Below, piece after piece: positions 10,418 to 43,266 of a DNA stretch of 64,000 nt; within the stretch, counting starts at the first letter, position 1; every line of letters starts with the position of its first letter. The stretch is from Chrysoperla carnea (taxonomy: Eukaryota; Arthropoda; Insecta; Neuroptera; Chrysopidae): positions 58,506,181 to 58,570,180 of the forward strand of contig NC_058340.1 of assembly GCF_905475395.1 (NCBI RefSeq), given 5' to 3'. The notes under the pieces were generated by a model, which was given only the letters and a program-made list of their open reading frames with translations, searched no databases and was not told where the DNA came from. Both the position numbers and the translations under genes were made by a program.

Positions 10418-13400
10418 TTATGTTTTAATAAAAATATTCTCATGTTGAAAGTCTAGATGTTTGTCTTTTATCATTTTAAAACGAATATGTTCAATGACGA
10501 ATATTCCAATTGACACGGTGACACCCACAATAAAAAATTTAAACGCAAAATTAAGGTCCTCAATTCCGGCGCTTGTAAAATAATTTTGTTGGTTTGCACA
10601 ATATGGTTTTTTCAAATAGAATCGTTTCCAAACTCTTGTTGCGTGGCCTGTTTCATAAAGAGTTTGGTACCTGAAACATTAAATTGTATTAAAATTTTTC
10701 AAAATGTATTCTTTTAGCATCACTATAAATTTATTTAAGTATTTCTTATGACTTTCTTAAAAGAATTATCAAATTTGATATAATAGGTATATTATAGTAT
10801 GTAGTGCTTAATTAAGGTTGAAGGAAGGACCAATTACATAGCGGTTGATAATCTGTAAGAGCTAACATGTTGGCGGTTGCTGTTGTTTTCAGCAATTGTC
10901 AATGGGATCGACCATGACGACCCAAGTAAATGCTTACTCGACGAAAAGAACGTTTAATAAGTTTGGATACCGGGACACAAGCGTATAGTGACTGTTTGTA
11001 ATATTTTTTTGAATGGAAGTATTATAGGGAAAAAAATTAATATTTTGACCATCTCTAGCCAGAAAAATGAATTGGAACTTCGTTCTGGCGCCAATCATGT
11101 CAATTGTTAGAATTCTTTTAAGCAAGCTTATTTTCTCGCCTGCTCCGATGATTTTCTTTGGCGTTTATCGCAAGAATAAACAGATTTGGATTTGTTTTAA
11201 CCTTTTTGCCACTCCTGTACCATGAACAACTCCTGGTCTAAAATACTTACGCTACTTTGAAAATTTCAACATAAGAGGAATTATGTGACGTAATTATCCA
11301 TCCATGTGTGCTTTGTACGAAAGTAATTTCGTGAATATCACATTTTTCATGCTCAAAGAAATATTTTTCCACTAAATGGTAGGCGATTGTTGGTATTGTT
11401 AAATAAGAAAATGGTTCATTTCGTAAACGTTTAATACCTTCATGAATTGGAATGAATATTTCATTTTCAGGTATATTTTTCATTTTTTTGTTATACAAAT
11501 ATAATCGCTCTGGATTCGAAATATTCTGAAAAATTTAATTAAAATTAAAATGGGCAGGCTGCTTAATCTCCTTTAGTCTATACAAATGCAGATCCGACTT
11601 GGCAAGACCATTTATTTTAATATTTCTTGGGAAGTAAATTGCAAACTTGTTGATTTTTTCGGGTTTTCTTGAGCTATAGCCATTTTTTGGTCAAAATTTT
11701 AGATTTTTACAATAAGCGTTTCTTTCCGTGAAGAATGGAATCGAGATGTATCCAATTTTTGATCTCATCCCGCACCTAGATTAAAGGAATCGATTTCTCT
11801 TGGCCAATATGCGACAATTTTTCAATCAGAAATCTTCGCCATGCTTACAGGTGCCCAGATCTGTAACACGAGAGGTGGAAGTGGAGCACATAATATCAGC
11901 TTCTTTACCGATAGTCTGTCCACACTTCGGGCCGTTGAGGCGTCAAAATTTCAATCGAAGATAGTCTATGAATGCGCTCTTGCGTTAAAGAGAATGAAAA
12001 AGGGGACTCTTTGACCCGAGAAGGGTCGTTTCAAACGCCTCTTTCACCTGGGCCTGCCATTCCCATAGCCAGATTCTCCGTAATTTATCGAATCAAGAAA
12101 TGGCTACGACAAGCTCATCTTGATTACTGGAACTTTGCCCATTTTTATAGATATTACAGATTATCTGGACTGATACTTACATTGAAATAAGTTCCAAAAT
12201 ATGATCCTTCTACTCCAAATTCTAATTTAGAATTAGCTATATCAATAATTGTATGAATACTGTCGCTTGAAGATTGTAAAATAACGACAATATATGCTGT
12301 GTAAGCATTATAAAGGAACATAAGCGATATAAGTAACATAAGTAATATTATTTTTCCAGCCTTACTCCGTGGTTCTACTTCTGTACCTTGCTGAGACACA
12401 GTGGCAACTATTACTAATACTAGGTCACTTAGTTTTGAGTGTAAATAATTTATACTTTTACAAAAAAAGATCTGAAATAAAATTGTGTTAGACTATGAAT
12501 AAGGGTAGTAGAAACGATCGCTGGACTCTAATAGATAAAAAGAACTCGTTACAGGCCTTAAGTCATATCGAATGAAATCCCCCTTTTTAATAGTCGAACG
12601 TTAGGCACTTTGAGTCTATCAGTTGGTTACAAAGTTGGTTTATGTCTCTATCGATTGGTTACAAAGAGCAGAATTATCATTTGTCTTCTCAATTCAAGAG
12701 GGAAATTTCGCTCGTATCTTACTTCTCATACTACGACTATGACTTGATCCTAGTTAATATAGATTGTTTTTTTAACCCCCCGAACCAAAAAAGAGTTTTT
12801 ATAAGTTTTCCCTCTATGTGTTTGTGCCTGTTTGTAGCATCGTAGCGCTTAAACGAATGAACCAATTTGTTTTTTTTTGTTTCTTTTAGAAAGATAATTT
12901 AATGGAAAGTATCCTTAGCTATGTTTCATGTCCGCGTTTTAGGATTTAGTACCCGGAACAACTAAAAAAAAGACCTTCAAAATTGTTTCAGTTTGGAGAA
13001 GGCTTTAAGGCAAAAAGATAATTTAATGGAGAATGTTTTTAGATATGTTTCAACTGCATGTTCAGGGTTCCGTACCCGAATAATTTCGTCTTTAACTTAA
13101 CGATTTTCTTGATTATGCTTTCGAGAATGCTACATAAACTGAACACCGATCGTAACATGACTAATATTATTTTTCCCCAGGGTTTTCACATCCTTAAATT
13201 AAGACGGTAAGTATAGACAACTTGGCATCACTTAAACCAATAGCCGAAAAGCTACCATTACTTAAAATATGACCTGCGTAAAGTTACCTGATCGTATACT
13301 TGATATTTTTCTTCAATAAATGTTGTAACAGCTAGTAATATAATTGCAACCAATGTAAGCGCAGCAATTGCTATCCATGTAGTACTAGCGAAAGTTAAAG

Positions 13401-16400
13401 TAAACAAATTTTCAACATAAGATAATCGCGGTTGTCGAAATATTACTTTTGCCTGTATTGATGAACTTGGTGATATAAATTTTACACTTAAACGAGGTGA
13501 CGTTATAAAATAACTGGAACCTTGAAAAAGTTTTAAATTACATAAAATTATTTTAGTTCTGAACCTTCCACCGCCATTTTAGCGTTTTTCTAGTAGTTAG
13601 GTGTTCTTTATATTAAGACAATCGAATGATTAATAGTGCATTTCTTTTACAAATTCTAAACTGTGTTTGCTTTTTTACAAAGATAATTTGCATTCCGAGG
13701 ATTGACATAAGCTAATTTTGATCCTGGGCAAAGGCGATGATTACCAAAATTTATAGATAAATATTCCCTGCGGTTTAAATATTTTTAGACAATTTAACAT
13801 GAAGTGAAAAATGTCCTTTCACGGCATTTTTTAGTTACGTACTATAAGGTATCTATTTAGAGGTAGAAGTTGGATTTACCGCCTCTGAACATTTAATTTA
13901 AAGAACCAGGAAGAAAGGTAATGGCAACTTTAGCCTCTCCAGCTAATGGGGTTACCACCTCAAAGTACGCGGGAAGTTGGGAGATAAACCAGAAAGTCGG
14001 GTGAAATTAATCTAATTATATCACCGAATCATATTACTTTACAATATTTTTACCAGTTTTGCCATAAGTAAAAATTTAAATAAATATCCTTTAAATAATT
14101 TAAAATAATAGCTGCTCGTAGAACAGTCGAATTTATCTGAATATCTATAAAAAAAATAAACTATTTTGATATCGGGAGTCGGGAGAAACCATACGATTTC
14201 TGGAGTCTTTCGATCCAATCTGTAGTACTACCAATTGTGGGTGCTTGTCAAATCATCCGATGTCGAAATAATGATGACACAAAATAGCAGAGCGTACGTT
14301 TACATTATTTAATCAGTTTCTCACATTGTTGAAAATAAATATTCCATTTTTAGGTTTTGAAAGGTCTTTCCGTGCATACAAATATCATTTATTATAATAT
14401 CACTTACCTATATCAGCATTTTTTTCCAATACAAGTTTAAATAATCCTTTTGGTAGACTATTGTGGTATACAGGTCCACCTAAGCTATCCGAAATCACGT
14501 ATGTACCGGTGCAATTGAAATATTCATAAATGACTTGTGATAGTATATAATTTGATTTCGATAATGTGTCTATGTGAGGCGTTCTGAAAATACGTAAATA
14601 TCAGTAATGTAGCAGTTCTTAGACGTTGAATGTTCTTTTTGTTGTTCACTGTTCTGTTAAACAAGGGCAAGGGCATTAATGTTTCAACATTTTACTAATA
14701 CTTACTTGTAGGTACCCAATTCTGCCAGGCTCTTATTATCGTGAATAACTAGACCTACTCGAAGAGACGTAGCTTGATGTAAATTTCTTCTTCTACGTGA
14801 TAAAATCGGAGTACTTCTTTTATCAATAAGTGTATTATTATTGGTCCATTGTCCATAATGTTCAACAATTATTGGGGTATTTTTCGTAATTTTATATGGT
14901 TGGAACAACTCAAATTGGATGTTTTCATTTTTTTTTAGACTGTGTACAAATATTACATCACTGTCTAAGTAAATTCCAAGTGAATTTAATATGTTCATTG
15001 ATTCTGGATCAATGTTTGTATCATTATAAAATGAGTTTTTATCAGAGAAAATTAACCACCTGTATGGACTACCAAAAAGACCTAGACGATCTGCCTACAA
15101 AATAATATAATAGTTTTTCTTTAGTTAAACAAACTTATTATTTCAACAAAAAAAAGACTAAATTGTGAGGTGAGTGTCCGTTTTTATATAATATTGTTTG
15201 CCAAACATCGAACAATCCAAACCTGATCTTTTGAATCATTGTCGCAGCTTAAGAGCCAGACTATCAAATAAAAAAACTTTTAACAAAAAGAAATCCGACT
15301 TATAAAAAAAACTATTCCAAAACAAATTAATATGCACTAAAAAGTAAAAAAATAACGATAATATAATGTAGTTATTTTTGTTATTTTTGGAGTCGGTATC
15401 AGCCAAGTTAATGTAGCAAACTGTTCTGCCACAGTCTGTGTACGCACTTTTTAGTGCATATTAATTTGTTTTGGAATATAGGTTTTTTTTTAAGTCGGGT
15501 TTGTTTTGTTTTGTTTTTGTAAGGTTTTTTTATTTTGTGATTTTTAGTGATTCTGAAGTACACAAACTAATTTGTCACTAAAAAAAGAATAATCGAAATC
15601 GGTTGATATTTAATGCAAATTAAATATCACACATACTTAATGCAAATTTAAGATTTATATGGTTTTCTCATGGATGCTATTGTCAGAACTGAACCAAATT
15701 GAAATGGGACCACAAGGTAAACATCAGCTTTTAAATAAAAAAATCGGTCCACTCAGTCTAAAGTTCTGAGGTAACAAACATAAAAAATAATACAGTCGAA
15801 TTGAGAGCCTTATCCTTTTGTTTGAAGTTGGTTAAAAATTACTTGGTTTCGAATCAGCAGCCATTTTGGTGCTCGAAAAGATTAATATCAGAAATTATTT
15901 CCTATCATATGAAGGAGAAATAATCCAGACATTCCTTTGATAAACTAAATTTTTAAAATTATAATAACCGTACTACTTTACTACGCCCACCTGTTTCAAA
16001 AACAGCTCAGTGTCATCGCATTGTAGATCGACTATAAACAATGCTCGATGGGGTGGAATAGGATAAAATAATTTATTACCATCAACATTTTGAATTAAAA
16101 TGCCTTGAACATTTCTTAATCCTGAAATACTTTTTATCAAATGTTTTTTATATTCTATAAATAAAAGCAAATAAATATTTTAATAAGATTATTTGGTATT
16201 GATGAAACTTTAATCAATACAAAATGGACCGAAAATTCCATACGTTCGACATCAATATTAGATGTTATGAAAAGTTCAATTCGAGAGAAAATCGAGCCCA
16301 AAAAAATCTGTTTATCATTATATATCAATGATTAATTCATCACATTTGAACCTTGGACCTGTGTTAAATTAATTATTATGCCTACAAATGTATAATCATC

Positions 16401-17528
16401 CCCAAAAATTTGATGTTCAATTTTGGTGTGGTGCCAAATTTTTGATGTGCCTTAAATTCCGAAGAAATTATTTGATAGATTTTATTATATTAGCAGTAAA
16501 ATAATGGCGAGCACGACAGCAGAGGAAAGTTTTTTGGACGGAATGAACAACAACAGGAGAAAAGCAAATCAAGTTTCGAATTCCACGGTTAATATTACTA
16601 AAAATGAAATTTTTATAAAATTCAACCCAGACCATTTTTTCAAGTCCAAATTTACTAAGATTATTTTGATTTTAGGAGGAAATGCAAAATTTGGTGTTAA
16701 TACTCACTGGTGTAGCTAACCTTGAGGGCGCCCTGTCAAGATTTATTCTCGAGACCCTTTTAGAAATTTTAGACATAGGGAAGTGACAGTCGGGGCCCGA
16801 ATTGTTAAAAAGATCGACGATATTTAAAATATATTATCAAACATTATTGAAAATTAGTAAAATTTAAATATTTATTATAATCAAAATTGTAGAAAATAAA
16901 TTTTACTATAATTTTCTTGCTCCTTTTTTGATTTACTTAAAAAAAAGCAAATCTGGTTTATTTTGCGATTGCACGATAAGTTTCTAAGACATTGTCTGAA
17001 CTGGTTTCGCGATGTTACACATCGTCTACGATTTTCATCGATATTTCAGAAACTCTTCACCCAATGGTCAAAGGGATCAGATTTTTGTGTATTTTGGGTC
17101 AAGAGTATACCCAAAAAAATTATTTTTATCCAAATTGGAGACTTTTTTTTTATACTCTTTTGAAAAAATCGAGAAAATCAGAAAAAATATTTTGTTTCAG
17201 AATTTGATGCAACTTGGTAGGTATATTTGGGCAATTTTGACCAAATTATAAAAATCGGGTTCATTTCACGATTGGATGAAAATGATTTTTATCTACACAA
17301 AAAATATTTTTGAAATTTCCTTAAAAGAAACAAATCAAGAACATCTTAATCTATTTACAATTATTTCATATATTGTTACTTACCAAGGTTCCAGCAAAGA
17401 AAATTATAAATAACGGTTGGTTTATTTTCAAGTAAACATAATTCTTTAATAAACGCAATTTTATTGAAATCAGCTGCAATTAATTGTATGAATTGCAAAA
17501 ATATGAAAAGTATACCACGAAAATTCAT
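10418..17528 (-). CDS. Ionotropic receptor A (IR75-like), intact, 8 exons
   Basis: Exons in transcript order: 17384-17528, 15991-16154, 14706-15094, 14408-14583, 13288-13520, 12181-12471, 11251-11525, 10418-10670, giving 641 residues with no stops. Visible parts: signal peptide (about 1-20); RRRRNLHQAT at the start of ligand lobe S1; GGPVYH and LEKNADIG within S1; membrane segment 1 at about 340-360; pore with QQGTEVEPRS near 395; membrane segment 2 at about 410-434 with FLYNAYTAYIV; ligand lobe S2 in exon 7 (EGIKRLRN, FFEHEKCDIHEI, GWIITSHNSSY); and KKPYC before membrane segment 3 at about 602-622. The pore and S2 motifs match the insect IR75 group, olfactory IRs tuned to acids or amines in known cases and thought to work with co-receptors such as IR8a. 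Introns over 300 bp hold mostly unrecognised AT-rich DNA. Intron 2 has an inverted-repeat element at 15292-15501. Confidence 0.88.
15292..15501. mobile_element. MITE-like element in intron 2 of receptor A
   Basis: A stretch of about 210 bp with inverted ends of roughly 50 bp. The inner 31 bases (TTCCAAAACAAATTAATATG onward) match exactly between 15315-15345 and 15446-15476. The outer part holds AAATCCGACTT and its partner AAGTCGGGTTT. The corresponding intron of receptor B, which shares flanking sequence with this intron, lacks it, so the insertion came after the A/B duplication. A related truncated copy lies at 19358-19523. Confidence 0.8.
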
Positions 17529-17586
17529 ATTTGACCTTCTCTTAAATGTTATGTGATTTTGAATGATCCTGACAAAAGATTGATTG

Positions 17587-19357: not shown

Positions 19358-19523
19358 TTTATCAGCCAAGCTAATGTAGCAAACTGTTCTGTCAGAGTTG
19401 TTTCCTTGGCTGACACCGACTCCAAAAATAACAACAACTTTAACTACATTATATTATCCTTATTTGTTTACTTTTTAGTGCATATTAATATGTTTTGGAA
19501 AAGTTTTTCTTTTGAAGTCGGTT
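19358..19523 (-). mobile_element. Truncated relative of the 15292-15501 MITE
   Basis: Read on the minus strand it repeats AACCGACTT, TTCCAAAACA, ATTAATATGCACTAAAAAGT, GATAATATAATGTAGTTA, GGAGTCGGTGTCAGCCAAG and AACAGTTTGCTACATTAG in the same order. One inverted end is missing or was not found. The copy in receptor A appears internally shortened by comparison. Confidence 0.65.
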
Positions 19524-19909: not shown

Positions 19910-22900
19910 CTAAAAACTTCTCCGGGAACGAAATTTCACCCAATTTTGAGAAAACTTTTTACGTGGTAGATGTTTGCTTTTTTTCATTCGATATCGAATA
20001 AGTTCAGAGACAAATATTCCAACTGAAACGGTGACACCCACTATAAAAAGTTTAAATGAAAATTTAAGATCTTCAATTCCAGCGCTTGTAAAATAATTTT
20101 GTGCATTTGCACAATATGGTTTTGATAAATAAAATCGTCTCCATACTCTTTTTGTGTGGCCTGATTCAAAAAGCATTTGGTATCTGGAATAGAAATTTAA
20201 TAACGATTTTTATAATCTCAGTATTTGACTCAGAAGCTATTGTATCGAAGTTATGCATCAATTTGAATCTTTCGTAATACAATCGATCCTCAATAACATG
20301 AATTTGACAACTGTTATTTTTTATACAATGTATATATGAAACTAGCTGACCCAGCGAACTTCGTACCGCCTAACAGTCGATTCTTTTTTTTTATAACACC
20401 ACTCAATTGTTTTACTTTCCCGGAACTCCTCTACTAACACTTAAACTTTATGGTATGGTATTAAAGTTCAAAGAGGTAAAAAATTGCTTCTTTTGAAAAA
20501 AAAACAAATTACGTTTAAATGTTTTCGAAAAAGGAAAAAAATGACATTTTTTATAAACACTGTAGCAAACACTGATACCCAAAAGTAACTCAGTCAATTG
20601 TTATTTTCACTTGTTATAATAAAAATAATGATTACAAATTGATATTGTCTCGTCAATCACACAGACCACTATCACATGACCTGTCTTATTAGCGATAGAA
20701 AATAATGCATAAATTTAATACTATGGTCTTCTGATCCAAATTAAATACTTACGCTACTTTGAAATTTTCAATATATGTTGAATTATGGTATGTAACTAGC
20801 CATCCATGTGAGCTTTGTACGAAAGATATTTCATTAATATCGCATTTTTCGTGTTCAAAGAAATCTTTTTCTATTAAATGATAAGCGATTGTTGGTAATG
20901 TTAAAAATGCAAATGATTCGTTTCGTAAACGTTTAATACCGTCATTAATTGGAAGGAATATTTCATTTTCTGGTATATTTTTTACTTTCTTGTTATACAA
21001 ATATAATCGGTCGGGAAAAGAAATATTCTAAAATAATTTTATTAAATTAGTATCATTCTTGAAATATTGGATCAAATTATAATTGATTTGTATCTTATTA
21101 AATATAAATTTCCTAATAATTGACCCAGGTATAAAATCGAGAGAAATAGCTTACTTATCAAGTCTGTTTTTCCTCATTTTCAAGGTTATCGTGCTGGCTA
21201 ATGACTCACGGTCTAAAAATGTACCGCTTAGGAAAAAATAGGCATGAGTAATAATATTAAGATTTAATTTTGTTCATTATGTAATTTGTATATCATATCT
21301 GTAATAAAATTGCCTATGATTGTCCAATTTTACCTAGTCAATGACTATAATTTTATGGTATTTTGTGAATCGACTACATCTATTTTACTAACAACCTTAA
21401 CCCAGGATCAACCATGCCAAGGATATGAGTCCATACTTACGATGAAATAAGGTTTATAATATACTTCATCTGCTCCAAATGATAATTTCGAGTCAGCGAT
21501 ATCTATAATTGAATGAATACTGTCGCTTGAAGATTGTAAAATCACAACAATGAGCGCTGTATAAGCATTGTAAAGGAACGTAAGTGAAATAAGTAACATA
21601 AATAGTATTAATTTTCCGGCATTACTTCGTGGCTCTACTTCTGTACCTTGCTGAGTTACAGTGGCAACCATTACTAACATTATTTCACTTAATTTAGATT
21701 TTAAGTGATTAATACTTGTATGAAAAATGACCTAAAACAAAATTTTATTCCAAAATAAAAACAAAATTAATTTACTCGTCGTCAAATTACCTGATCGTAT
21801 ACTTGGTACTTTTCTTCAATAAATGTTGTAACAGCTAGTAATATAATGATAACCAATGTAAGTACAGCAATTGCAATCCACGTAGAATCAGCGAAAGTTA
21901 AAGTAAATAAATTTTCAATATACGATAATCGTGGTCGTCTGAATATTATTTTTGATTGTATTTCTGAACTTGGTGATATAAATTTTGCAACCAAACGAGA
22001 TGACGAGAAAAGATAACTGGAACCTTATAGATTTTAAATTATTTATACGATTAGATACAAGAAATTAAATTTTATGTGATGAAGTTTGGAAGTTTTCTAG
22101 ATGTATTGAAAACGTATTCGCTTAATAGTCAGGTGTTTTTCTATATTAATATATATCTTAATATATATATTTCTTGTGTGCGTGTGTATGTAATTGAACT
22201 CCTCCTAGACGGCTGGACCGATTTTGATGAAATTTTTTGTGTGTGTTCGTGGAGATTCGAGAATGGTTTAGATTTACAATTTGGTCCAGTACAACTGTTT
22301 TTGAGGGCTCCGTACCAAAAAAATGAAATTTCATTAAATGGTGGGAGCGCATATAAATCATATCACATTATGTATACTATGTGTACTATGTATTTTTAAT
22401 AGTATTCAGGTATTGTCAATAGGCATTTATTAGAGCCATATGCGAGCGCAGCGAGCTCTAATTAGAGCCATATGCGAGCGCAGCGAGCTCTACTATCAAA
22501 GGTCAGGCCAAAGGTCGAAGGTCAGGCCACTCCAATAAATAGGAGTTAAATTGGGGTTTAGCGGGATGGGTTTAGCGGACAGGCTAAACGTAGTATAGGT
22601 ATTCATGAATTGGAGTTACGTTTTTACGGGACAACGTCCGTCGGGGCCGCTAGTATATATATATATAAGTAGTATAAAGAGATAAAATTTGTTTTGTTTG
22701 CCTGGAAGGGGTAATTTCTGGAACTACTAGAATCATTTTAATGAATGAGTTGTTGTTGGATTCGACAACACATCGTGTCAGGAGTAATATATGCTATAAA
22801 GTGTTCTGGAAACTATGGAATGGCGACCACCAGGCTACCATTTTTGTTTTTTTAGATAAAAAAGTTTGAATAAATGGAAGCAACCGGAAGCTCGTGGTAT

Positions 22901-25630: not shown

Positions 25631-25712
25631 CTAATAATTAGTACATAAAAGTAATTTTTGATAATCCGTACTTTTGCTAATAATGTGTACTTTATTTGTA
25701 ATTTGTTTGTAG

Positions 25713-25770
25713 TTTATAAACAAAGGCCTTTGATAAAATTGTTTCTTTATCTCTATCAAAAATGCAATTA
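25713..25770 (-). promoter_or_regulatory. Conserved upstream block, receptor B
   Basis: A block 145-202 bases before the start codon, shared with C (34651-34710) and D (43406-43470). On the plus strand it holds ATAAACAAAGG, CTTTGATAAAATTGTTTC, CTATCAAAAATGCAATTA. It contains GATAA/TTATC-like words. A role in receptor expression is inference. Confidence 0.45.
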
Positions 25771-26787: not shown

Positions 26788-27030
26788 TATGATTCTCCGT
26801 ACCCATATCATTTGTATCGACATTCTTGCTTAGACATACCCAGTCCTCTTTTTAACAAGATACTCAATAATAAAAACTACGTAAAATTTAAATCTTTATT
26901 TTTAATAGAAAGCAATTACATTTATCATCAACATATTTTTAAATGTAAAAATAAAACTACTTATATAAAATGCGAACTAGAAAAATACCCAATATATAAA
27001 AACAATAACAAATTAGATAATTCTTTCTAA
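26788..27030 (+). other. Open frame of unknown nature, copy 1
   Basis: A frame of about 80 codons opens after AAAG at 26787 (YDSPYP...) and ends at TAA. It contains YRHSCLDIP, NYVKFKSLF, IFKCKNKTTYIKCELEKYP and KLDNSF. No ATG begins it, so it would be an exon or a decayed gene end. A second copy at 36136-36378 keeps the frame without indels while several codons differ. It lies opposite in strand to the receptors, downstream of C. I do not recognise the protein, and no matching partner exon was found nearby. Confidence 0.35.
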
Positions 27031-28153
27031 ATGCATTTTAATCAAATATGAAAAATTTAGGTTTTCTTTTTTTATCTTGTAGTCTGATAAAAGACTTGTG
27101 TATTGTAATCTTTCTCGGCAAGCAGAACTTTTTCATCATTAGGCACGCTATTTCATTGATTGGGTATTTTGAGATAAACGGGATATTATTATAGATGGAA
27201 AATAAAAAATCGCACCAGCTATAATCTATAACATTTCATGTGATGAATACACTCGAACATGTGATCAGTACACTATAATGTTTTAACTGGCTCGATTTTA
27301 ATGACATAGAGTAAATTTTGTAATACAAAACAAAATAGTTGCCGTTTTGAAATATTTACTGAAAATTAATAAGATTAATTCGTGTAGGATTTAAGAAAAT
27401 CACGTAGCTTGCAGTGAATGAAAGTATACGACTAAGAGTGAAAAATGAAAAATTACAATGCGTACTAACAATTGAAGAATAATTTATTTTCGAATTTTTG
27501 ATTTCGATTTATTGAAAAATGGCCAATCTGCAGAAATGTTGCTGCAGTGTCAAACACGATTTGTTAAAATGCATGTTAAAACAAGAAAATTGTACCTTGT
27601 GAAGTGTGCCAAACGTCCAATTTTTCGGGATTTTTAAAACTTCTATTCTCAGAACACTGCCAATGAATTTTGTCTGCCATATTGTGTCCAACCTGTAAAA
27701 GATGTTTACTTAAACCTGCCATCGACTCCATAAGGTAAAAGTAATATTTTTTCTTCTATTTACCCTCCACCTTCTCACATTAAAACTGCCATACAGTTGT
27801 ATACGTATGATTGGAAATAAATGCTCCTAAATTGACCTAAAAGCTTACCAGATGGCGGACGGTAAAGAATCAAAATTTGAATGACGCTTCATCTCATTAT
27901 TTCATGAGATTCTTGAAGAGGTACTTGAAATAGTACCTATTTAAAAAAAATGCATTCCTGACTCTAAAATTTAGTTTCTAGATATAAAGCTTTAAAAATT
28001 TCTAGATATAAAGCTGTCGACCATTTAGCTATCAAAAGATATAAACATTGATCGATTGTTTAGTATACTACGCAAAGCATAACAGCTGGGAAATAACTTA
28101 TTTTAATATGAATTTTTTTTATGAAGTTCCTATGACTTCGTGAAACTGAATAC
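27031..28153. other. Spacer downstream of receptor C
   Basis: Mostly AT-rich, with no gene seen. Long stretches (such as near 27050-27160 and 27290-28060) match the spacer downstream of receptor D at about 36400-37400, as expected if both came from one duplicated segment. Confidence 0.6.
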
Positions 28154-31100: not shown

Positions 31101-34100
31101 ACATTTTTTCCATTTTTCTAAATCACAAGATTTAAAAATTAGGGAGGGATTCCACATTTTGTGCACCTTTTTTAGCTTCATATCTCGCGCGTTGGTCTTA
31201 TGACCAAAAAAAAAAATTAGTTAAATCAGATAAAAAAGTTTTATAAATTATTTTGCCTTTTGGTAACGGAGACATAAAAATTCTCGCCCGTTAGATTTTA
31301 GAATTCTCTCATTTATTCGATTAATAAGTTCTTTAAGATTCTTATAATACATAATAATATTTTAGAAAATATCACTTACCTATATCGACCTTCTTTTCTA
31401 ATACAAGTTTAAATATTCCTTTTGGTGGCATATTATGGTAAGCAGGTCCACCAAAAGTATCCGCAAACAGATATTTACTGGTACAATTGAAGTATTCAAA
31501 AATAACTTGTGATAATATAAAATCGGCTTTAGGAATTGTATTTATATTAGGTGTTCTGAAAATACGTAAAAATTAGTAATTCGACTCCCTATTTCGAAAT
31601 TGAATACACACGTTGATATAAAATATCACTCTTTAGTTCGTAGCTAAAAGCTGCTTAATTAATTTTTTTAAGCCAGATTTTTAGATTTCAAGAATAAATT
31701 AACGCTACAATAATGGATACGTTTTGTAATAACACAGTGATCAATGAGCGCTCACTAAACACTTTGAGTGAGACTTAGTCACGGTAGTAAGGGCTCACTG
31801 ATCACTAGTTCTCAAAATGCAGCCAATATTTTTAAAAGTATCGATCTCAATTTAAAGATCGATTCAGAAAAAAACAAAAACCTCAAATAGTACCTTCCTA
31901 AAAAAAAAATTGGTAGCAATTACTGGTCTTTTTATACATATACTAAAAATTCGGATCATTATTTACTCATTTATTTCCTGCTGTTACTGGCAAGTCACCC
32001 TCTTGCTCGTCTTAGTTCTCAGTTAGCTATTAATTTTAATTATAAATGAAGTAAATGATCTCACCGATTACTATTCCCAAAAAGGCAAACATTGTGGATA
32101 CTCACTTGTAAGTGTTCAGTTCTGCCAGGCTGTTGCTATCGCGCGTAACCGTAGCTACTCGAAGAGTAGCTTGATGTAAATTTCTTCTTCTACGTGATAT
32201 AATCGGAGTACTTCTTTTATCAATAAGTGTATTATTATTGGTCCATTGTCCATAATGTTCAACTATTATTGACGTATTTTCCGCGATTTTATAAGGTTGA
32301 AATAACTCAAATTGAATGTTTTGATGGTTTTCCAGACTTTGTACAAGTATTACATCACTGTCTAAGTAAATTCCAAGTGAGTTGAATACATTAATTAATT
32401 CTGGGTCAATGTTTGAGCCATTATGAAATGAATTTCTATCAGAAAATATAATCCATCTATATGGACTAACGAAAAGATATAAACGATCTGCCTACAAAAT
32501 AATTAAAAAAAGTACTTGTATTAAGTTGTATTAAGTATCTTTACACCTTGTAGCTCGAAAACTTGCTGATCTGTTTTTGAACAAGGAGACCTCGAGCGAG
32601 CGTGGGCGTAGAAAGACCAGTCCGTAACATTTTGTTTATTGTAAAAAATCTGACATGTCATAAATTGGACTAGTGAGGAACGCGCGTGTGCCACAGAAGA
32701 CCATTTTACAATAATCTTCATTCAGCAACCCATTTAAACCCCTTTCAATCCTGAAAGGGGAGTGAAATCTCCTTTTGCGACGCACAAGGGGTAAAAGAGA
32801 CACGTTAGATTGATCTTAAACTTTGAAGAGGTAAGATAAGCAGTTATGAACGCCTTGTGAAGCGAATTTTTGTTATCCTAACGCGAACTGCAATTACATT
32901 TGGGAGGGATTACTTTTATTGACGTCTTATTTCTCTTTACTTTACGGTGGCGCGTTTAGCCGGGTGAGGCTTTTTTTATTAAAGCAATCTGAATACAATG
33001 TGCATTTCGATCATCTGAGAGTTTTGAATCAACATAAGGCTAACATTCGTTAAATCCCAGTCGATATTCAGGCCACTAAGCTTGAGAGAGCGAACATAAA
33101 TTTACAAATTGAGTGTCTATTCTATGTTTATTGATGCGAAGTTTAGAGAAGGGATCGTGGAAGCTGAAGCAACAGTTAATTACATTTTTTTGGTTTATTT
33201 TCAGCAACACATTCTAGAGAACACACCCTTAAACAACGCCATTTATTTAGGTTCATAACTTCTATAACTCCGATAATATAAATTGTGCGAAGGGTAATGT
33301 AAAAAAAGGCTTAAAGAGTAAAAGGTTAAAGCAACATTAGTGGCGGCTATCTAGTCTGCTAATATACTACATGTATTTAATAAAGCGACTATAGTCTTTT
33401 AATTTTTCATCAAAATTAATTACAATTTAAATTTTAAGCTCTTAAACAATTATAAAAAATTGTGATAAAAGCCAGATGTCTTCTAAAAACATTTTGCAGT
33501 TATTAAATCTACCTTTTGCAAAAACATCTCGGTGTTAGGGCATTGTAGATCGACAATAAACAATGCTCGATGAGGTGGTATGGGATAAAATAATTTATTT
33601 GTATCAACAATTTCCATTAAAATGCCTTGAACAGTTCTTAACCCTGAAATGCTTTTTATGAAGTCCTTTTTGAATTCTAAAATTGAATGAAATATCATTA
33701 ATATAAGTATATACAGATTTATGTATTCCTGCTATTGACTCTAAATTTTTACTAGATATTCTGTTATACACTGATGGAAATGGTATTTTTTGTAACTCTT
33801 AAATTAGAATGTTGTTATCGGTTAAAAATGTAACATTTTTATTCGAAACATTTTTCCATTAACCGTGTAGCGTAGGGAAAAAACGGAGTGAAAAGTTTTA
33901 CCTATAATTGTTTTTTCGTATGTCTTCTGCAGAATCTAGGCACTTTTCGAAAAAAATTTTCCATTAAAAGTGGTTTGCTTTTCTAAAAAGACCTTTTTTT
34001 TCAAATTGAATGAAGAAACGCGCTAAAAGCTATGATATGTAATTTCCTTATTATTCTCCGTTACACACCTTATTCTATAATAGAATAGAACTAAGCATAG

Positions 34101-34511
34101 CACGATCAAATTCACTCGATTTGAAGCTGTAACTTTCTTTGAATCGATCTATATTGAATGGTCTTCCGGTAAAGTTCGCCAAAAAACTTTTTCATTTATA
34201 TTATCTCTTATTCTTTTTATATTATTATATTCTTTTTATATTATCTTTTTATTTATTTCATCACTTAGTACATCATTGAATGATACACAAACTTGTACAA
34301 ATTTATGAAAAAGAATAAGAGATTGTTACTGAAAATGTATTTTGATTTTCTTACCACGATTCCAACAAACAAAGCTGTAAATCACAGTTGGCTTATTCTC
34401 ATGTATACATAAATTTTTAATAAATTGTATTTTATTATTTGTATAACTTGCTGTGGCAATTATAGATTGTATAAATATCCAAAATATAAACAGCCAGGTT
34501 AAGAAATTCAT
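28154..34511 (-). CDS. Ionotropic receptor C (IR75-like), intact, 8 exons
   Basis: Exons in transcript order: 34355-34511, 33513-33676, 32106-32491, 31380-31555, 30265-30497, 29462-29752, 28877-29151, 28154-28367, giving 631 residues, open throughout. The start is MNFLTW at 34511, aligned with D; an in-frame ATG 15 bases upstream is possible. Exon 3 is one codon shorter than in A and B (ATLRV for ATSLRV), as in D. Landmarks: KRSTPIISRRRRNLHQATLR, GGPAYH, membrane segment 1 before AVTTFIEEKYKVYDK, pore QQGTEVEPRSNAGK, FLYNAYTALIVVILQ, FFEHEKCDINEI, RKPYC and membrane segment 3. The tail stops earliest of the four (EYIRHRKIKDN). Introns are AT-rich and largely alignable by eye with those of D. 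Intron 7 has no recognised content beyond two short unsupported open frames. Confidence 0.88.
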
Positions 34512-34560
34512 GCTTGAACGTTGCAAAAAATAAACTTAAAAAAAATCTAAATAATTGCTC

Positions 34561-34568
34561 TTTATATA
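34561..34568 (-). promoter_or_regulatory. TATA-like box upstream of receptor C
   Basis: TATATAAA on the minus strand, 50-57 bases before the start codon, at the same distance as in D. The surrounding CTGGCTGTATATAAA is kept in D as GGCTGTATATAAA. Confidence 0.45.
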
Positions 34569-34650
34569 CAGCCAGAATAAAAGATTTTTAAAGATTAGTT
34601 GGAAAATAATTTTTAACTATCTATTTTTGCTAATTATATGTTTTTTATTT

Positions 34651-34710
34651 TATAAACAAAGGTCTTTGGATAATTGTTTCTTTTTCTCCATCAAAAATGC
34701 AATTATGTTG
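34651..34710 (-). promoter_or_regulatory. Conserved upstream block, receptor C
   Basis: Plus-strand text TATAAACAAAGGTCTTTGG, TTGTTTCTTTTTCTCCATC, AAAAATGCAATTATG, 140-199 bases before the start codon. It corresponds to the blocks at 25713-25770 and 43406-43470. Confidence 0.45.
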
Positions 34711-36135
34711 TCGTAGGTCATTAATTCATTTTCAATTCCAAACTAGTACAAAGTATAAGAGCCGACTGTGGGGAAGGATATTGTACCATTTTCTGTAAGG
34801 ATATTGTACTACCTTCATTTTCAATGTATTATTAATGTACTGTTTCATATTCATTTTCTTTCGTTTTCTTTTTTTTCCGTTACCTAAGTGTAAATTATTA
34901 AATGGGAAACATTTGTTACATACATTTACACAATGTAAAAAATATCCATATATAACTATGTTTGGTGGAGAAAAATAAAATACAAGCCCATACTAAAATT
35001 TTTCAGTTGTAATGATCCACCAATAATTCTGTTGAAAAAAATGCTCCTATATGTAAAAGTACCTAAGTTTAAGAACTATTGCGTCATTTTTGCGCGGTAC
35101 AGTTGAGAATATGAATGGCGTACCCCTTGGTCTCTCCCCCCTGCGCCAGCAAATATGTTCGCGTTACTGGATACTCTGCATAAGTATTCGAAGCGAATTA
35201 CGTAAATGCTGTACAGAAAAAAATCACTTATGGCTTCGGAAATTGACGGAAAATATATCTATATATATATAGGAGACTTTCTATAGATCTATATAGATAG
35301 TCACTCATCACGATATCTCTGGAACTATAAGACCTAGAGACTTGAAATTTGGGAGGAATATTCCTTTTGCCAAGTAGAGGTCAGCTAAGAACGGATTTTA
35401 CGAAATTCCACCCACAAGGGGGGTTGCGGGGGTGTTCATGAATAAAAAATTCATGTTTTTCAATTATGGCTTTTAATAGTTCAAAACTTGGTCAGAATGT
35501 TTTAAATTACATTTAGAAATTTTTTTAACCTTCGGAGGGTAGAAAGGTGTAGCGAGAAAGTGGGAAGGAAATATCGAATATTTACAAATATACCTAAGTG
35601 GGGTATCAAATAAAAGAGCATGACGTGTACATTACAAAACTGTTATCCAACGCAAGGAAATGTGGAGGGAGGGGTGAAGTGGGGATGTTGCCCAGCAAAG
35701 CGGGTAGTTCCTAGCTAGTATATATATATATAACCAAAATGGAACTAAATACATTTTTTTTTCAAGTTTTTAGGAGGGAGCTGCCCTTGTATGCCCCACC
35801 CCCCTTGGCGACACCATTTCCTTCGGTAAACAATATCTTGGCTACTACGATCTTCAAAATTCCTCTCGGAATTGGCTCTATTTAGGGAACTAACTGGTAT
35901 TTTTTGACTCAAATAACCGAGATTACGTATATATGTATTTACGTATAGCCATTTCCCTCCGTAAGAAGTTGGCAGTAGTCTGACCACATTGCAACTTGGA
36001 AACATGGTTCTTATGAATCTTCATTGTCCTCTTAAGAAAATGCAACCATTACGAACTTGCACTATATTGTTTTGTCAAAATTCTAGGCTACATTACGTAA
36101 ACATGAGAGGTAAAATCGAACTTCAAATCACAAAG
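34711..36135. other. Spacer between C and D, with a repeat insertion
   Basis: No gene recognised. The middle is taken by the repeat element at 35270-35730. From about 35740 the sequence resembles the region near 26600-26790 upstream of the first copy of the unknown open frame. Confidence 0.5.
35270..35730 (-). repeat. Repeat element between AT tracts
   Basis: On the minus strand it begins ACTAGCTAGGAACTACCCGC and TTTGCTGGGCAAC, the same start as the element at 58103, and contains the shared CACTTCACCCCTCC phrase. It is bounded by TATATATA tracts on both sides. No coding capacity was seen. Confidence 0.6.
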
Positions 36136-36378
36136 TATGACTCTTCGAACACCTGCCATTTGTATCGACATTCTTGCTTAGACATACCCACTTTTCTTTT
36201 TAACAAGGTACTCAATAATAATAACTACGTAAAATTTAAATCTTTATTTTCAATAGAAAGCAATTACATTTATAATGATCATATTTTTAAATGTAAAAAT
36301 AAAACTACTTATATAAAATGCGAACTAGAAAAATACCCAATAAAAGAAAACAATACCAAATTAGATAATTCTTTCTAA
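36136..36378 (+). other. Open frame of unknown nature, copy 2
   Basis: Counterpart of 26788-27030: the frame opens after AAAG (YDSSNTC...), continues with CHLYRHSCLDIPTFLFNK, NYVKFKSLF, FKCKNKTTYIKCELEKYP, and ends KLDNSF then TAA. Here the frame also stays open upstream to about 35989, without a convincing start. The two copies differ at several amino acids but not in length. Unknown function; it may be a decayed exon carried along by the receptor duplication. Confidence 0.35.
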
Positions 36379-37428
36379 ATGCATTTTAATCAAATTTGAA
36401 AAATTGAGTTTTAATTTTTTCCAACTATAACTATGGACATCTTACACAAGTCTGATAAAAGACTTGTGTATTGTAATCTTACTTTTTCGGCAAGCAGAAG
36501 TTTTTCATCACTAGGCACGCATTTCACTGATATGGGTATGATTACATGTGATGAATACACTCGAGCACTGTATATAATTTATACTATAATGTTTTAACTG
36601 GCTTGATTTTAATGATATAGAGTATATGTTGTGATACAGAACAAAATAGTTGCCGTTTTGAAATATCTACTGAAAATTAATAGGTGTAGGGTTTATTAAT
36701 TAATTCGTGTAGAGTTTAGGGCAATCACGTGGTTTGAAGTGAAATTATTTAATATCCCCAGTAGGTAGACTAATTTTATACGACTAAGAGTGAAAAGTGG
36801 AAAATTATAATGCGTACTAACAGTTGAGGAATCATTTATTTTCGAATTTTGTATATCGATTTACACAAAAATGACCAAGCTGCAGAAATGTACTGCAGTG
36901 TTAGACACGATTGATTAAAATGCATGTTAAAACAAGAAAATTGCACTTTGTGAAGAGCGGTAATGACCAATTTTTTCGGGTTTATTAAAACTTTTATTCT
37001 CAGAACACTGCCATTGGATTTTGTCTGTCAATATTGTTTTCAGCCTGTAAAAGATGTTTACTTAAACCTACGATCGACTCCATATAGTAAAGGTAATATT
37101 TTTTCTTGTATTCACCTTCTACCTTCTCACTTTTAAACTGCCATACGGTCGTATACGTATAATTGGAAAAAAATGCTAACAAATTGACCTAACAGCTTAC
37201 CAGATGGGTGGCGGTAAAGAATCAAAATTTGAATGACGCTTCATCTGATGAAATAGTACCTATTTAAAAAAAATGCATTTCCGACTCTAAAAGTTTATAA
37301 AGATATAAAGCTTCTATTTATAAAGCTGTCGACAATTTAGCTATCAAAAGATATAATCATTGATCGATTGTTTAGTATGCTAACACGCTAAGCATAACAG
37401 CTGGGAAATAAATTAGAAAAGTTATAGT
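36379..37428. other. Spacer downstream of receptor D
   Basis: AT-rich and similar by eye to 27031-28153. No coding frame stands out. Confidence 0.55.
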
Positions 37429-40400
37429 CTAATATATCTTTTTTATGAAGTACTTCGTGAAACTGAATACTTTGTTTTTTTTCTTTCGATGACGAATATA
37501 TTCAACGACAAAGATTAAAATTGAAACTGAAACACCCACTATAAAAAGTTTAAATGCAAAATTAAGATCCTCAATTCCTGCGCTTGTAAAATAATTTGGT
37601 TTGTTTGCACAGTAAGGTTTTCGTAAATAGAATCGTCTCCATATTCTTGTTGAAAGGCCTCTTTCATATAGAGTTAAGTATCTGAAATATATAATAAATT
37701 GATTAAAAATTTTTCAAAATGGATACGGTTAGCATTAGATACAAAAGTCATTGTATCAAATCATATATTTATTCGAAATCAATAAAATGAAGTCTATGGT
37801 AGTTTTCACAGTCCCTGACATGTACCCGATTTGTTATCAAAGCAGCATATTTCAAAACACCAATATCTAAGACATCATTCTATCATTACTTTCATAGCTC
37901 AGAATTTGTAGACGATTACGTAAAAGATATCTATTTGAACTCTAAGTTTGTCTATACGTGAGGTTAGCAATCCAAAATGGACCATTTTTTAAATTAACAA
38001 GCCAACGACTTAAAATTTTTGAAACTTGATGTTTATTTCTTTAGAATTCGAAAACTCGAGCCTCGATTATTAAATAAACTCGATAACTTGACATTTTTGT
38101 AATTTTCAATGATATTCTTTTTATTCAGATTCGACTCACCCACCCGTATCACACGTGGATAAATGCATTTGACAATCACTTAACAACTTCCAACTGCCTT
38201 ATGACCGAAAGAAAATGATGCATAAATTTAGTACCATGGTCTCCTGGCCCTAACTTAATACTTACGCTACTTTTAAATGTTCAATATATGATGAATTATG
38301 ATGTGTAATTAGCCATCCATGTGTGCTGTTAATGAAATTAACTTCATTAATATCACATTTTTCATGTTCAAAGAAATATTTTTCCACTAAATGATATGTG
38401 AGGGATGTTAATGCTAAAAACGCAAATGATTCATTTCGTAAATGTTGAACCGCTTCATGACCTGACATAAATATTTCATTTTCAGGTTTATTTTTAATTT
38501 TTCTGTTATATAAATATAATTTCTCAGGAATAGTAATATTCTACAACATTAGAAACACTTTGAATATAATGCATTTACAGTCAATTTGGATAGTAGGCGA
38601 TACTTACATGCAAATATTGGGTAAAATATATTTCGTCTGCTCCAAACGTTAATTTCGAATTAGCTATATCAACAATTGAATGAATACTGTCGCTTGAAGA
38701 TTGTAAAATCACAACAATGAGCGCTGTGTATGCATTGTAAAGGAACGTAAGTGAAATAAGTAACATAAATAGTATTAATTTTCCGGCATTACTTCGTGGT
38801 TCTACTTCTGTACCTTGTTGAGTTACAGTGGCAACCATTACTAATATTATGTCACTTAATTTTGAGTGTAAGTAGTTAATACCCGAATGAATAGTGACCT
38901 GAAAAAAAATTTTATTTTGCCCTTAGCAGATACCCACTCAAAATTACAAATTTTTATACAAACCATCGTTCCCTTTTCACTACCAAAATGACGGAGTTTC
39001 ATACAAACATTCATCCCCTATTTGACCCCCTTAAAGAAATTCATCATAAAAAAGCGATACAGCAAATTTTTGCCTCAAATTTTGAGCTCATATAGCCCCA
39101 CCTTTTTAACCCCGTTATTCGTCGATTTTCAATTAAAAACGAAACTCATTTTTCATCAATTCTTTTAAAGAATGTTTATGAAAACTTTGAAGTAGATTGA
39201 GCCAATGAATCTCGTTTTCCCATAGAAAAATTGCCCCCATTTTTCATCCTCTTGGGGGTAGAATTTCGGAAAATCCTTTCTTATCGGATGCCTACGTAAT
39301 ACAAAGAACACAACCTTCAAGTTTTCGGTCTCTACGATCAGCGGTTTAGGCTGTGCATTGATTCGTCACTGAGTCAGTCATTCAGGACAAAGCATTTTAT
39401 ATGTATAGATAATAATATCCATATAACTCCATATAACCAAACTCGGTGCCCATCTTAAAAGATGGTGATTGCTCTTAAAAGTCAGTGCAGTAAAGAGATA
39501 TTTTTTAGGTCTTCCCCACGTAAGTGCCACAAGTATAAGCACAAAATTTTTCCAAAATTTGTTTTCTTTCAAGTCGGGCCTAATTACAAAATTTGTTTTA
39601 GTTGAAAAATGAGATCAATCTATTAAAAATTTGTTTTTTCGGAAAATCGAGACGTTTCCTTAAAAAATTTGTTTTCTCAGAAAATTCGGACCTGTCTTTC
39701 CAAAAATTTATTTTTTCGCAAAACCGCCGGTTAATTCACGGACCTGAATTAACCACAATCCGCGAATTAGTAATTTGATACAGGGTCTTCATTATTCATA
39801 TACTAAAAACATTAATTTAGGTTTCATAAAATTACCTGATCGTATACTTTGTATTTTTTTTCAATAAATGTTGTTACAGCCAGTAAAATAATGATAACCA
39901 ATGTAAGTACAGCAATTGCAATCCATGTAGAACCAGCAAAAGTTAAAGTAAATAAATTTTCAACATAAGATAATCGTGGTCGTCTAAATATTATTTTTGC
40001 TTGGATTTCTGAACTTGGAAATATATATTTTACATTCAAACGACTTGCCATTACAAGAAAACTGGAACCTTAAGATTATTAATATAAGAAAGTGAACTTA
40101 TATAGGCGAACAGTTTTGTTGATTTCTAGTGTTATTTTGAAGGAAACCTATTCGCCTGGTTAATTGTTAACTAAATCAAACCATAATCATATGATTTGTT
40201 TTAAAAGTTTCTTGCCATTTGGTAACGGAACACTAAAAAGTCTTGTCCGTTGGAAATAAACCCCTCTTGATTTTTAATATGATAATATTGTAGAAAATAT
40301 CACTTACCTATATCAGCCTTTTTTTCTAATACAAGTTTAAATATTCCTTTTGGTGGAGTATTAGTGTAAGCAGGTCCACCAAAAGTATCCGTAAACAGAT

Positions 40401-43266
40401 ACGAACCGGTACAGTTGAAGTATTCAAGAATAACTTGTGTTAATATAAAATCGGCTTTAGGAATTGTATTTACATTAGGCGTTCTAAAAATACGTTAAAA
40501 TTAGTAATTTTGGAATACAGTGGTAATTGAGCGCCCACTAAACATGTTGAAGTGTGAGTCTCCGTATTTGGTAAGCGCTCACCGGTCACTAGTTCCCAAA
40601 ACGCATTCAATATTTTAGAAGTAACCATCTGAATTTAAAGATCGATTCAGAAAACAAAAATTCCCAAAGATATACTTTCTAGGATTGGTAGCAATTTCTA
40701 GTATTTTGTATTGAGATTTTACACTATTTAAGATCGGCTCGGTTCTCGGTTGGCTATCACTTAAAATTTTAAACGAAGTAAATGATCGGAGAGTGTGCTT
40801 AGTCAACATATTTCAGTGCTCTCCGATTACATTTCATCAAAAGGCAAACATTGTGCATACTTACTTGTAGGTGTACAGTTCTGCTAGGCTTTTATTATCG
40901 CGCGTAACCATAGCTACTCGAAGAGTAGCTTGATGTAAATTTTTCCTTCTGCGTGATATAATCGGGGTACTTCTTTTATCAATAAGTGTATTATTATTGG
41001 TCCATTGCCCATAATGTTCAATTATAATTGACATATTTTCCGCTATTTTATAAGGTTGAAATAACTCAAATAGAATGTTTTGATGGTTTTCCAGATTTTG
41101 TACAAGTATAACATCACTGTCCAAGTAAATTCCAAGTGAGTTGAATACGTTAATTGATTTTTCGTTAATGCTTGTGTCATTATAAAATGAATTTGTATCA
41201 GAAAATATAATCCATCTGTATGGACTAACGAAAAGATATAAATGATTTGCCTACAAAATAATAAAAAAGTACTTACATTAAGTTAGTATACCACGTGCTA
41301 CATCTTATAGCACGAAAACTTTCTGATCTGCATTTGAACGCCAACAGCAAGAGAACCTCGGGTGACTTTGGGGGTGGAAAGGCCGGCCTTTAGCATTTTG
41401 TTTATTGTGAAATATCAGACATTTCATAAATTTGACTAGAGAGGAACGTGCGCCCTGACAGGCGATTTTCAGTGGCTGGATTTAGCCGAACGTGGCTTTT
41501 TTTATGAAGCCTCCTGAAAACTAGTATGTTTTCCGATCATCCGAGGATTTTGAATCAAAATAAGGCTAACATACGGTAAATTACTGTAAGCTTGAGACAG
41601 TAAACATAAATTTTCCAAAATTGAGTGGTTTGAATATACCTATTTTACGTCTATTGGCACCAACAGTTTAAGAATGGGATCGTGGAAGCTGAAACAACAG
41701 ACACTCTGAATATTACATTTTTTGTTTATTTTCTGCTACAGCTAAAGAGTCTAGAGACCACATCGCCATTTATATAGGTTCATAACTTTCATAACTCTTA
41801 CATAATATACTGTGAAAAGAGCAATGTAAAAAAGGCTTAAATATAGTAAAAGGTTAAAGCAACATTAGTTGCGGCTATCTAGTCTGCTAATTTAGAAGGT
41901 ATATTTAATAAAACGATTAGTTTTTTAATTTTTGACTTTTTTAGAAATTTTGTTTCAAATCAAAATTAATTACAATTTAAATTTTAATCTCTTAAACAAT
42001 TGTAAAAAATTGTGGCTGACATAATATAATCTGTCTATTAAAACATTTTGCAGTTATTAAAGCTACCTTTTGCAAAAACATCTGGGTGTTAGGGCATTGT
42101 AGATCGACAATAAATAATGCTCGATGAGGTGGTGTCGGATAAAATAATTTATTTGTATCAACAATTTCCATTAAAATGCCTTGAACAGTTCTCAACCCAG
42201 AAATGCTTTTTATGAAGTCCTTTTTGAATTCTAAAATTGAATGAAATATCATTACTATAAGTATATATATAGGTTTATGTATCCTTGCGATTGACTCCAA
42301 ATTTTTACTAGATATATTCTGTTATACATTGATGGAAATGGTATTTTTTGTAACTCTTAATTTAGAATGTTGTTATCGGTTAAAAATGTAGCACTTTTAA
42401 TTCGAAACATTTTTCCATTAACCGTATAGCGTAGGGAAAAAACGGAGTGAAAGGTTTGACCCAAAATTGTTTTTTCGAAAAAAGCTATGATATGCGGTTT
42501 TTAATAGGGTCTTATAGGGTTTTGGTATCAATTGCTATCTAAACTATTCGGTTTACAAAAAAATGTTTCAAGCAATAAAAGTTTGTCTTTTTATAAAGAA
42601 CAACTTTCTAATTTAAAGTGTTCGACAAATGTTTGTCAGTTATGAATTAGTGTGAGGTTTTAACTGAACTGGAAAGCTTAGATTTAATTCAGTCCCCGTA
42701 TAAGATGTGCGCTTTTGAAATGTTTCGCGCATATGTCCAGTTAAAAAAACACTCTGTATACAAATCAATCAAGTCTATCATTTGATAAAAAAATTTTTTA
42801 AGTAAATCAGATTGACGCATTGATTCTTTAACTTTAAAAGGTACTTTTGTGGCTATTCTTCCATAAACACCTTATTCTATAAAAGAATAGAACTAAGCAT
42901 AGCCCGATCAAATTCATTCGATTTGAAGCTGTAACATTCATTAAGTCGACCTATAATGAATGGTCTTCCAGTAAAGTACGAAAAAAAACTTTGTCATTTA
43001 GATTGCCACATAGTACATCATTGATTGATAAGAAGAAGAACAAGAAAACCGCGACCTTCAGAGCTGCAATCCAAGGATTGTTACTGAAAATTTATTTTGA
43101 TTTTCTTACCACGATTCCAACAAACAAAGCTGTAAATGACAGTTGGCTTGTTCTCACGTATACAAAAATTTTTAATAAATTGTATTTTATTATTTGTAAA
43201 AATTGCTGTGGCAATTATAGATTGTATAAATACCCAAAATATAAACAGCCAGATAAAGAAATTCAT
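37429..43266 (-). CDS. Ionotropic receptor D (IR75-like), intact, 8 exons
   Basis: Exons in transcript order: 43110-43266, 42067-42230, 40865-41250, 40308-40483, 39836-40068, 38608-38898, 38266-38540, 37429-37681, giving 644 residues, open throughout. The start MNFFIW is followed by a hydrophobic signal peptide. Landmarks match C: RRRKNLHQATLRV (one Arg changed to Lys), GGPAYTN where the other copies have a His, membrane segment 1 before AVTTFIEKKYKVYDQ, pore QQGTEVEPRSNAGK, FLYNAYTALIVVILQ, FFEHEKCDINEV, RKPYC and membrane segment 3. The last exon reads through the position where C stops and ends KYFIKKIY. Intron 5 carries a repeat insertion (38928-39405) that C lacks. C and D are each other's closest relatives here. 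Confidence 0.88.
38928..39405 (+). repeat. Repeat insertion in intron 5 of receptor D
   Basis: About 480 bp present here and absent at the matching place in receptor C (after TTTTATTTTGC). It ends with phrases common in insect dispersed repeats: CGGAAAATCCTTTCTTATCG, GATGCCTACGTAATA, GGCTGTGCATTGATTCGTCA, CTGAGTCAGTCATTCAGGAC, then a TTTTATATGTATAGAT tail. These resemble LINE 3' ends, possibly RTE type. No coding was seen. Confidence 0.6.

Follow-up and report, generated by a model that had tools for sequence, protein, structure and literature searches.

The window analysed here, 64,000 nucleotides of chromosome 4 of the green lacewing Chrysoperla carnea (C4:58506181–58570180; gene positions below are counted from its first letter), carries at 10418–43266 an array of four adjoining minus-strand receptor genes, A to D, each with eight exons and predicted proteins of 631–651 aa. 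By their sequences, A to D are IR75-type ionotropic receptors (IRs), an assignment that is well supported though not proven, and it is likely that the array represents a lineage-specific tandem expansion, in the green lacewing, of one IR75-type tuning receptor, consisting of constrained genes, with an exchange of sequence between A and B, that probably encode acid-binding subunits. The original prediction of four intact eight-exon copies was borne out to the base, including the outer coordinates 10418 and 43266, and rebuilt gene models confirmed that exons 2, 4, 5, 6 and 7 measure 164, 176, 233, 291 and 275 bases in every copy and that exon 3, differing by one codon, measures 389 bases in A and B and 386 in C and D. 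Introns are GT-AG in 28 of 28 cases, the phases are identical in all four genes, and internal stops occur in none of them (0/4). Intron lengths range from 59 to 1,229 bases; exons 2 and 4–7 stay constant, and exons 1 and 8 are of unequal length among the copies. Since protein identity among A to D is 70–90% over 626–643 positions, their likeness is not due to chance.

No fifth copy or fragment was seen in the window, where tblastn with the four proteins gave 128 high-scoring segment pairs, all inside the exons of A to D, in agreement with the earlier remark that the array holds no visible pseudogene. In the genome-wide tblastn, in which 70 of 111 initial candidates were scored, every non-array match lies elsewhere in the genome, and the nearest non-array gene among the scored candidates is at C5:5.66 Mb, with 46–47% identity over about 600 positions. 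The genome paper states that this assembly has an NCBI annotation (PMC10116181), so RefSeq very probably lists the four genes by now, with automatically assigned names.

The architecture of all four proteins comprises an IR75A_N domain, S1, pore-bearing membrane segments, S2 and a last membrane helix. Pfam IR75A_N (PF24576) scores 50.7, 46.6, 52.7 and 49.3 bits in A, B, C and D against a cut-off of 27, which supports the IR75 type proposed in the original prediction, and Lig_chan lies above its curated cut-off in all four (42.1, 39.6, 39.1 and 42.0 bits, respectively). The large amino-terminal domain of the ionotropic glutamate receptor (iGluR) type, ANF_receptor, is found in IR8a/IR25a and iGluRs and is not known as a feature of other IRs; among the Pfam families listed up to E 0.1, it is absent from 4/4 proteins. 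The profile match in the PDB was the kainate receptor GluK2 (E 3.7e-23), covering the S1–pore–S2 core at profile positions 265–621, the profile (alignment A1) being made from C, A, B, the C5 sister gene described below and two further relatives, with D left out. Hydropathy places membrane segments where expected in 4/4 proteins; an N-terminal hydrophobic stretch exceeds the threshold used in every copy but B. The multi-intron structure (seven introns in 4/4 genes) is as in antennal-type IRs, and antennal IRs of Drosophila have been reported to contain 4–15 introns per gene (PMC2924276).

For comparison within the genome, 20 more receptor-matching stretches were modelled with a self-written splice-aware aligner, which recovered the exons of gene A except the stop codon; two of these stretches (L045 and L047) yielded no receptor model and one (L041) a pore fragment only. 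In the resulting tree of 25 sequences, which is limited by short outgroup fragments (46–174 of 414 columns), A to D are monophyletic with 100% support and the single C5 gene is their sister, also with 100%, while several deeper nodes are weak (50–75%). The exon plan goes back further than the array. The C5 sister has exons of 163/493/179/233/297/275/196 bases, in which one fused exon takes the place of exons 2 and 3 while the others line up with the array plan; the 275-base exon is also present at C3:65.42, C3:39.03, C1:19.97 and C1:112.73, and at C1:19.98 in one of two models, the other having 276. Because the sister shares the exons of 233 and 275 bases and the latter recurs in four more loci, the plan is an inherited character of the receptor group that is older than the array, and equal exon lengths were consequently rejected as evidence of selection. 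A tandem trio of related receptors at C4:6.93–6.95 Mb (L036, L037 and L038) has 11 exons per gene, with exons of 133, 190, 166, 173 and 206 bases in all three, the same pattern as in the array; an alternative model of L038 differs in the first exons.

The original suggestion that selection keeps all copies holds, on grounds different from those first offered. Pairwise dN/dS among A to D, all dN/dS estimates here being pairwise, is 0.30–0.38 (NG86) and 0.21–0.29 (YN00), well below 1 as had been anticipated, and all four copies are therefore held under constraint. Between C and D there are 0 indels in 1,882 exon sites (all of exons 1–7 plus 200 bases at the start of exon 8, the unequal C-termini being excluded). 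Introns 1 and 2, the two of seven that lie below a preset mismatch cut of 25% (introns 3–7 have mismatches of 0.27–0.43), show 22 indel events across 1,374 aligned sites. When each coding sequence was evolved neutrally along branches of 0.08–0.30 per site, lengths that the author chose from dS values, a mean of 7.8–22.5 stops per copy arose. By region, dN in S1+S2 exceeds dN in the pore, with a bootstrap interval that excludes 0 in 5/6 pairs, the exception being A–B. Since the highest regional dN/dS among the four pairs split by region is 0.71, in S1 of B–C, this coarse regional measure, pairwise and free of site or branch tests, shows no positive selection.

A and B share a tract of about 540 bp with 89.8% identity over 547 columns. 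In local alignments of the A/B introns, intron 2 scores 121 and the other six 15–35, and introns of A or B against those of C or D score 13–37, with one at 66. Synonymous divergence between A and B amounts to 0.12 in exon 3, compared with 0.29–1.70 elsewhere in the coding sequence. Exon 3 also holds the longest stretch of polymorphic sites at which A and B agree (P=0.0004 with 5,000 shuffles, or about 0.002 once corrected for six pairs); exon 1 runs were also seen in B–C (P=0.0008) and B–D (P=0.0004), and these may simply reflect how unusually far A has diverged in that exon. These patterns are best explained by gene conversion of the tract. Because the A/B similarity ends near the start of S1, about 45 bases short of the end of exon 3, the tract falls within the part encoding the N-terminal domain and leaves out most of the ligand-binding domain. 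A single tract is not enough to demonstrate selection for its placement, and the split in exon 3 length between A+B and C+D is confounded by it.

The genes A to D arose by successive tandem duplication, of which C/D is the youngest (dS 0.15–0.16). Six segment sets, one of them consisting of all but the tract, were used to ask in which order A, B and C/D separated, and in none of the sets did the AU test reject any of three trees (lowest p 0.0588); in the S1–S2 tree, B is grouped with C/D at 63%. A block located approximately 140–200 bases ahead of the start codons is common to B, C and D (AATTGCATTTTTGAT ... CCTTTGTTTATA). Despite this shared block, B can no longer be aligned with C and D in its introns, save for a weak signal in intron 7 (B–D score 66). 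A genome search with the 111-base block of D listed three places, upstream of D, C and B, all in the array, and local alignment did not find the block at gene A or at the C5 sister; the upstream regions of A and the sister have a best local score of 37, for which there is no shuffle control. Weak block scores were obtained in L040 (34) and L043 (36) versus shuffle maxima of 24, with five shuffles each. The block may have a regulatory role, and gene A, being without it, may differ in site or time of expression.

Table 1. Positions of the receptor genes and duplicated elements in the window.
Feature	Position	Strand	Exons	Exon lengths (bases)	Remarks
Receptor gene A	10418–17528	−	17384–17528, 15991–16154, 14706–15094, 14408–14583, 13288–13520, 12181–12471, 11251–11525, 10418–10670	145/164/389/176/233/291/275/253	641 aa
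Receptor gene B	19910–25568	−	25415–25568, 24631–24794, 23907–24295, 23186–23361, 21791–22023, 21441–21731, 20753–21027, 19910–20183	154/164/389/176/233/291/275/274	651 aa
Receptor gene C	28154–34511	−	34355–34511, 33513–33676, 32106–32491, 31380–31555, 30265–30497, 29462–29752, 28877–29151, 28154–28367	157/164/386/176/233/291/275/214	631 aa
Receptor gene D	37429–43266	−	43110–43266, 42067–42230, 40865–41250, 40308–40483, 39836–40068, 38608–38898, 38266–38540, 37429–37681	157/164/386/176/233/291/275/253	644 aa
A/B tract, A side	14698–15238	−			last ~144 bp of intron 2 and exon 3, final ~45 exon bases divergent
A/B tract, B side	23899–24440	−			counterpart of the A-side tract
Youngest duplicated unit, copy 1	26631–34856	−			gene C and flanks, outer matches to 35956 and 43624; self-comparison, repeat families
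Youngest duplicated unit, copy 2	35956–43624	−			gene D and flanks; self-comparison, repeat families
Upstream block of B	25648–25770	−			70% identity to D block
Upstream block of C	34602–34708	−			90% identity to D block
Upstream block of D	43357–43467	−			111 bases, query of genome search

The residues that line the predicted ligand pocket were located by sequence-profile alignment to GluK2 and are named by the GluK2 numbers T690 and E738. The residue table covers A to D and 20 loci. Three of these loci (L003, L041 and L050) have no letters at the acidic column, and with the sister, L029, assigned to the array, 16 remain; L045, L047, L001, L002 and L004–L008 are outside the table, and the models of L039 and L043 are without S1. 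The carboxylate-binding arginine, aligned with the GluK2 Arg, is retained as R301 in A and R304 in B, C and D. At the E738 position, A, B, C and D have I, L, L and L and the sister has L, and 15 of the 16 other IR loci with letters have E or D, the exception being the divergent L046 with S and an E one place on. The T690 position is occupied by F, Y, F and F in A, B, C and D, respectively. The Cys before the pore QQG is also lost in the clade of array and sister and kept in 14/16 other scored loci. The five-gene clade thus appears from the alignment to have lost the acidic agonist residue, and a pocket with the arginine and without the acidic residue would fit carboxylate ligands that lack an amino group. 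In the loop right before the arginine (residues 298–303 of C), all six sites vary among the copies, C being the same as D there.

It has been reported that Ir75a and Ir75b sense organic acids, that the S1 arginine is kept in acid-sensing and not in nonacid-sensing IRs, and that drosophilid orthologues of Ir75a keep all three main iGluR agonist-binding residues (PMC8575457). Because the T690 and E738 positions are changed, A to D are not classed as Ir75a itself. Several observations weigh against reading the array as a set of IR75-type acid receptors. The assignment to IR75 comes from a Pfam profile and from a tree of this genome's own receptors that holds no named insect orthologues; of the main agonist residues, A to D retain the arginine only, at positions taken from a profile alignment and not from a structure; and the arginine itself is kept in 15/15 non-array loci with letters, sister and iGluR included, so in this genome it does not discriminate and argues only weakly for acids. 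In addition, a tuning difference through the published Ir75a/Ir75b hotspot, the GluA2 Y732 equivalent (PMC8575457), was rejected, as this position is W in all four copies.

One rival holds that A to D belong to a lacewing or neuropteran branch of antennal-type IRs that lies close to IR75 proper without being part of it, with IR75A_N marking a wider N-terminal family, an unchanged channel mechanism and the ligand class open to amines, aldehydes or others; we regard it as possible but doubtful. IR75A_N is above the cut-off also in the C5 sister (29.3 bits) and at C3:65.42 (36.4 bits), is far higher in a divergent locus at C1:112.73 (72.7 bits), and is added by the genome scan at C3:39.03 and at two places at C4:24.24–24.25, hence in more than one branch; the node joining array and sister to the receptors at C4:28.3, C2:40.2 and C4:6.9 has just 67% support, and the acidic residue and the Cys that prevail elsewhere are lost in the clade. 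Nevertheless, the profile does discriminate, giving no match at C1:19.97, C4:28.33 and C3:11.66 and a score below the cut-off at C4:6.94, and all four array members stand well clear of the cut-off. A more elaborate proposal, which seems unlikely, is that a lacewing-specific IR75 sublineage evolves by modules, such that N-terminal conversion halts near S1 and the ligand-binding halves diverge, that shedding of the acidic contact and a hydrophobic pocket make its members sensors of amino-free, perhaps longer-chain acids, and that A escaped the upstream element of B to D into a different neuron class.

Two further rivals concern the A/B tract and the preservation of the copies. We think it quite unlikely that the low A/B divergence in exon 3 results from special purifying selection, for instance on an embedded splicing or regulatory element, instead of conversion. 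The tract is a single one, sister-rooted topology tests reject none of three trees for it, the sister being a distant outgroup, and the run test, when limited to third positions (P=0.031), falls short of significance once corrected for six pairs; however, exon 3 is not slow in general (synonymous divergence 0.42 for A–C and 0.39 for B–C), the likeness reaches about 144 bp into intron 2, where the alignment score far exceeds those of the other introns, and the run test on all polymorphic sites withstands the correction. Less probable still is the view that some copies are redundant or decaying, their frames being intact through recency or repair by conversion, for which the youth of C and D, the likely A/B tract and dN/dS values of 0.71 in S1 of B–C and 0.59 in the last segment of B–C and C–D could be cited. 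Against it, even the short branches of C and D (0.08 per site, author-set) were stop-free in only 1/300 and 0/300 neutral runs, no indels separate the exons of the two genes, and just one clear conversion tract was found.

For the expansion of one IR75-type tuning receptor, which we favour, the following mechanism is proposed. In sensory neurons, each protein would serve as the tuning subunit of a cation channel formed together with an IR co-receptor, IR8a being the co-receptor of the known acid-sensing IRs. An odorant would bind between S1 and S2 via the retained arginine, and this binding would open the channel; the ligand is most likely a carboxylic acid that carries no amino group. Because the copies have diverged most in S1 and S2, the pore being the least changed part, they probably share gating and differ in tuning; A and B would have exchanged sequence after duplication, in one tract. 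The copies may, as originally suggested, detect related odorants.

The array resembles Drosophila Ir75a/Ir75b/Ir75c in the IR75 N-terminal domain, the IR channel core, the presence of several related genes and the retained S1 arginine, a likeness of description that does not imply one-to-one orthology; unlike what is reported for Ir75a orthologues (PMC8575457), A to D are without the acidic and, by profile alignment, the threonine agonist positions, and have W at the hotspot. Similarly, the S1–pore–S2 core can be aligned with that of GluK2, but the lacewing proteins have no ANF_receptor match and carry Leu or Ile in place of the amino-group-binding Glu (E738). Lepidopteran IR75p/IR75q are likewise a lineage-specific expansion of IR75-type tuning receptors, although a separate one in another order, likened here by description. 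The moth expansions have been read as subfunctionalised acid sensors, two of five assayed receptors responding to C6–C9 acids (hexanoic; octanoic and nonanoic) (PMC8822749). Beetles, also likened by description and not by sequence, have several IR75 members per genome, with 8 in Trypodendron lineatum, 11 in Dendroctonus ponderosae and only four in Agrilus planipennis; the available text of these accounts makes no mention of gene conversion or shared upstream sequence (PMC11302349, PMC6720082). In some insects, several closely related IR75 genes occur, part of them pseudogenes (PMC2924276). Little literature on lacewing IR75 was found: judging by titles, there was no lacewing study among IR75 papers for lacewing, Chrysoperla or Neuroptera, and a paper on Chrysopa pallens describes 16 IRs with IR75 unmentioned in the available main text.

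Several other features were observed in the window and the genome. At lower coordinates than the array, a carbonic anhydrase gene lies on the plus strand at 2644–3762 (Pfam Carb_anhydrase E 6.3e-24 for 3394–3762, with an exon candidate recognised by eye at 2644–2853), followed by a fragment of a hAT-type transposase at 8607–9170 (+; Dimer_Tnp_hAT E 2.7e-5). Intron 6 of gene A contains an open frame at 11763–12011 (+), antisense to the receptor, which by eye resembles part of the RNase H of a non-LTR retrotransposon; Pfam gave no match in support. An inverted pair of about 117 bases with 90% identity (15295–15407 in intron 2 of gene A and 19405–19521 between A and B) is possibly a small dispersed repeat. 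Beyond the array there is a Major facilitator superfamily transporter gene at 52662–59964 (+; MFS_1 E 1.6e-19 for 52662–53429), whose exon candidate at 59641–59964 has no Pfam match, and large open frames at 61929–63999 (−), of which two pieces have no Pfam match, probably belong to a protein-coding gene running off the window. Elsewhere, the divergent receptor L044 at C1:112.73 Mb scored highest for IR75A_N when the genome was scanned (75.1 bits there); its pore segment is YNFYTSSVVSSLL, and relatives resemble YTSYSANIVALLQ.

Taken as a whole, the array is a further case of the known and common expansion of IR75 in-paralogues, and its sequence points to an ordinary lineage-specific expansion that is probably acid-tuned; what is new here is the probable A/B conversion tract, the upstream split between A and B to D, and the absence of the acidic agonist residue, lost throughout the clade. 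Green lacewings are important predators of aphids, and in this lineage four copies with one homogenised stretch and a divergent binding domain offer a compact natural experiment on how tuning changes after duplication.

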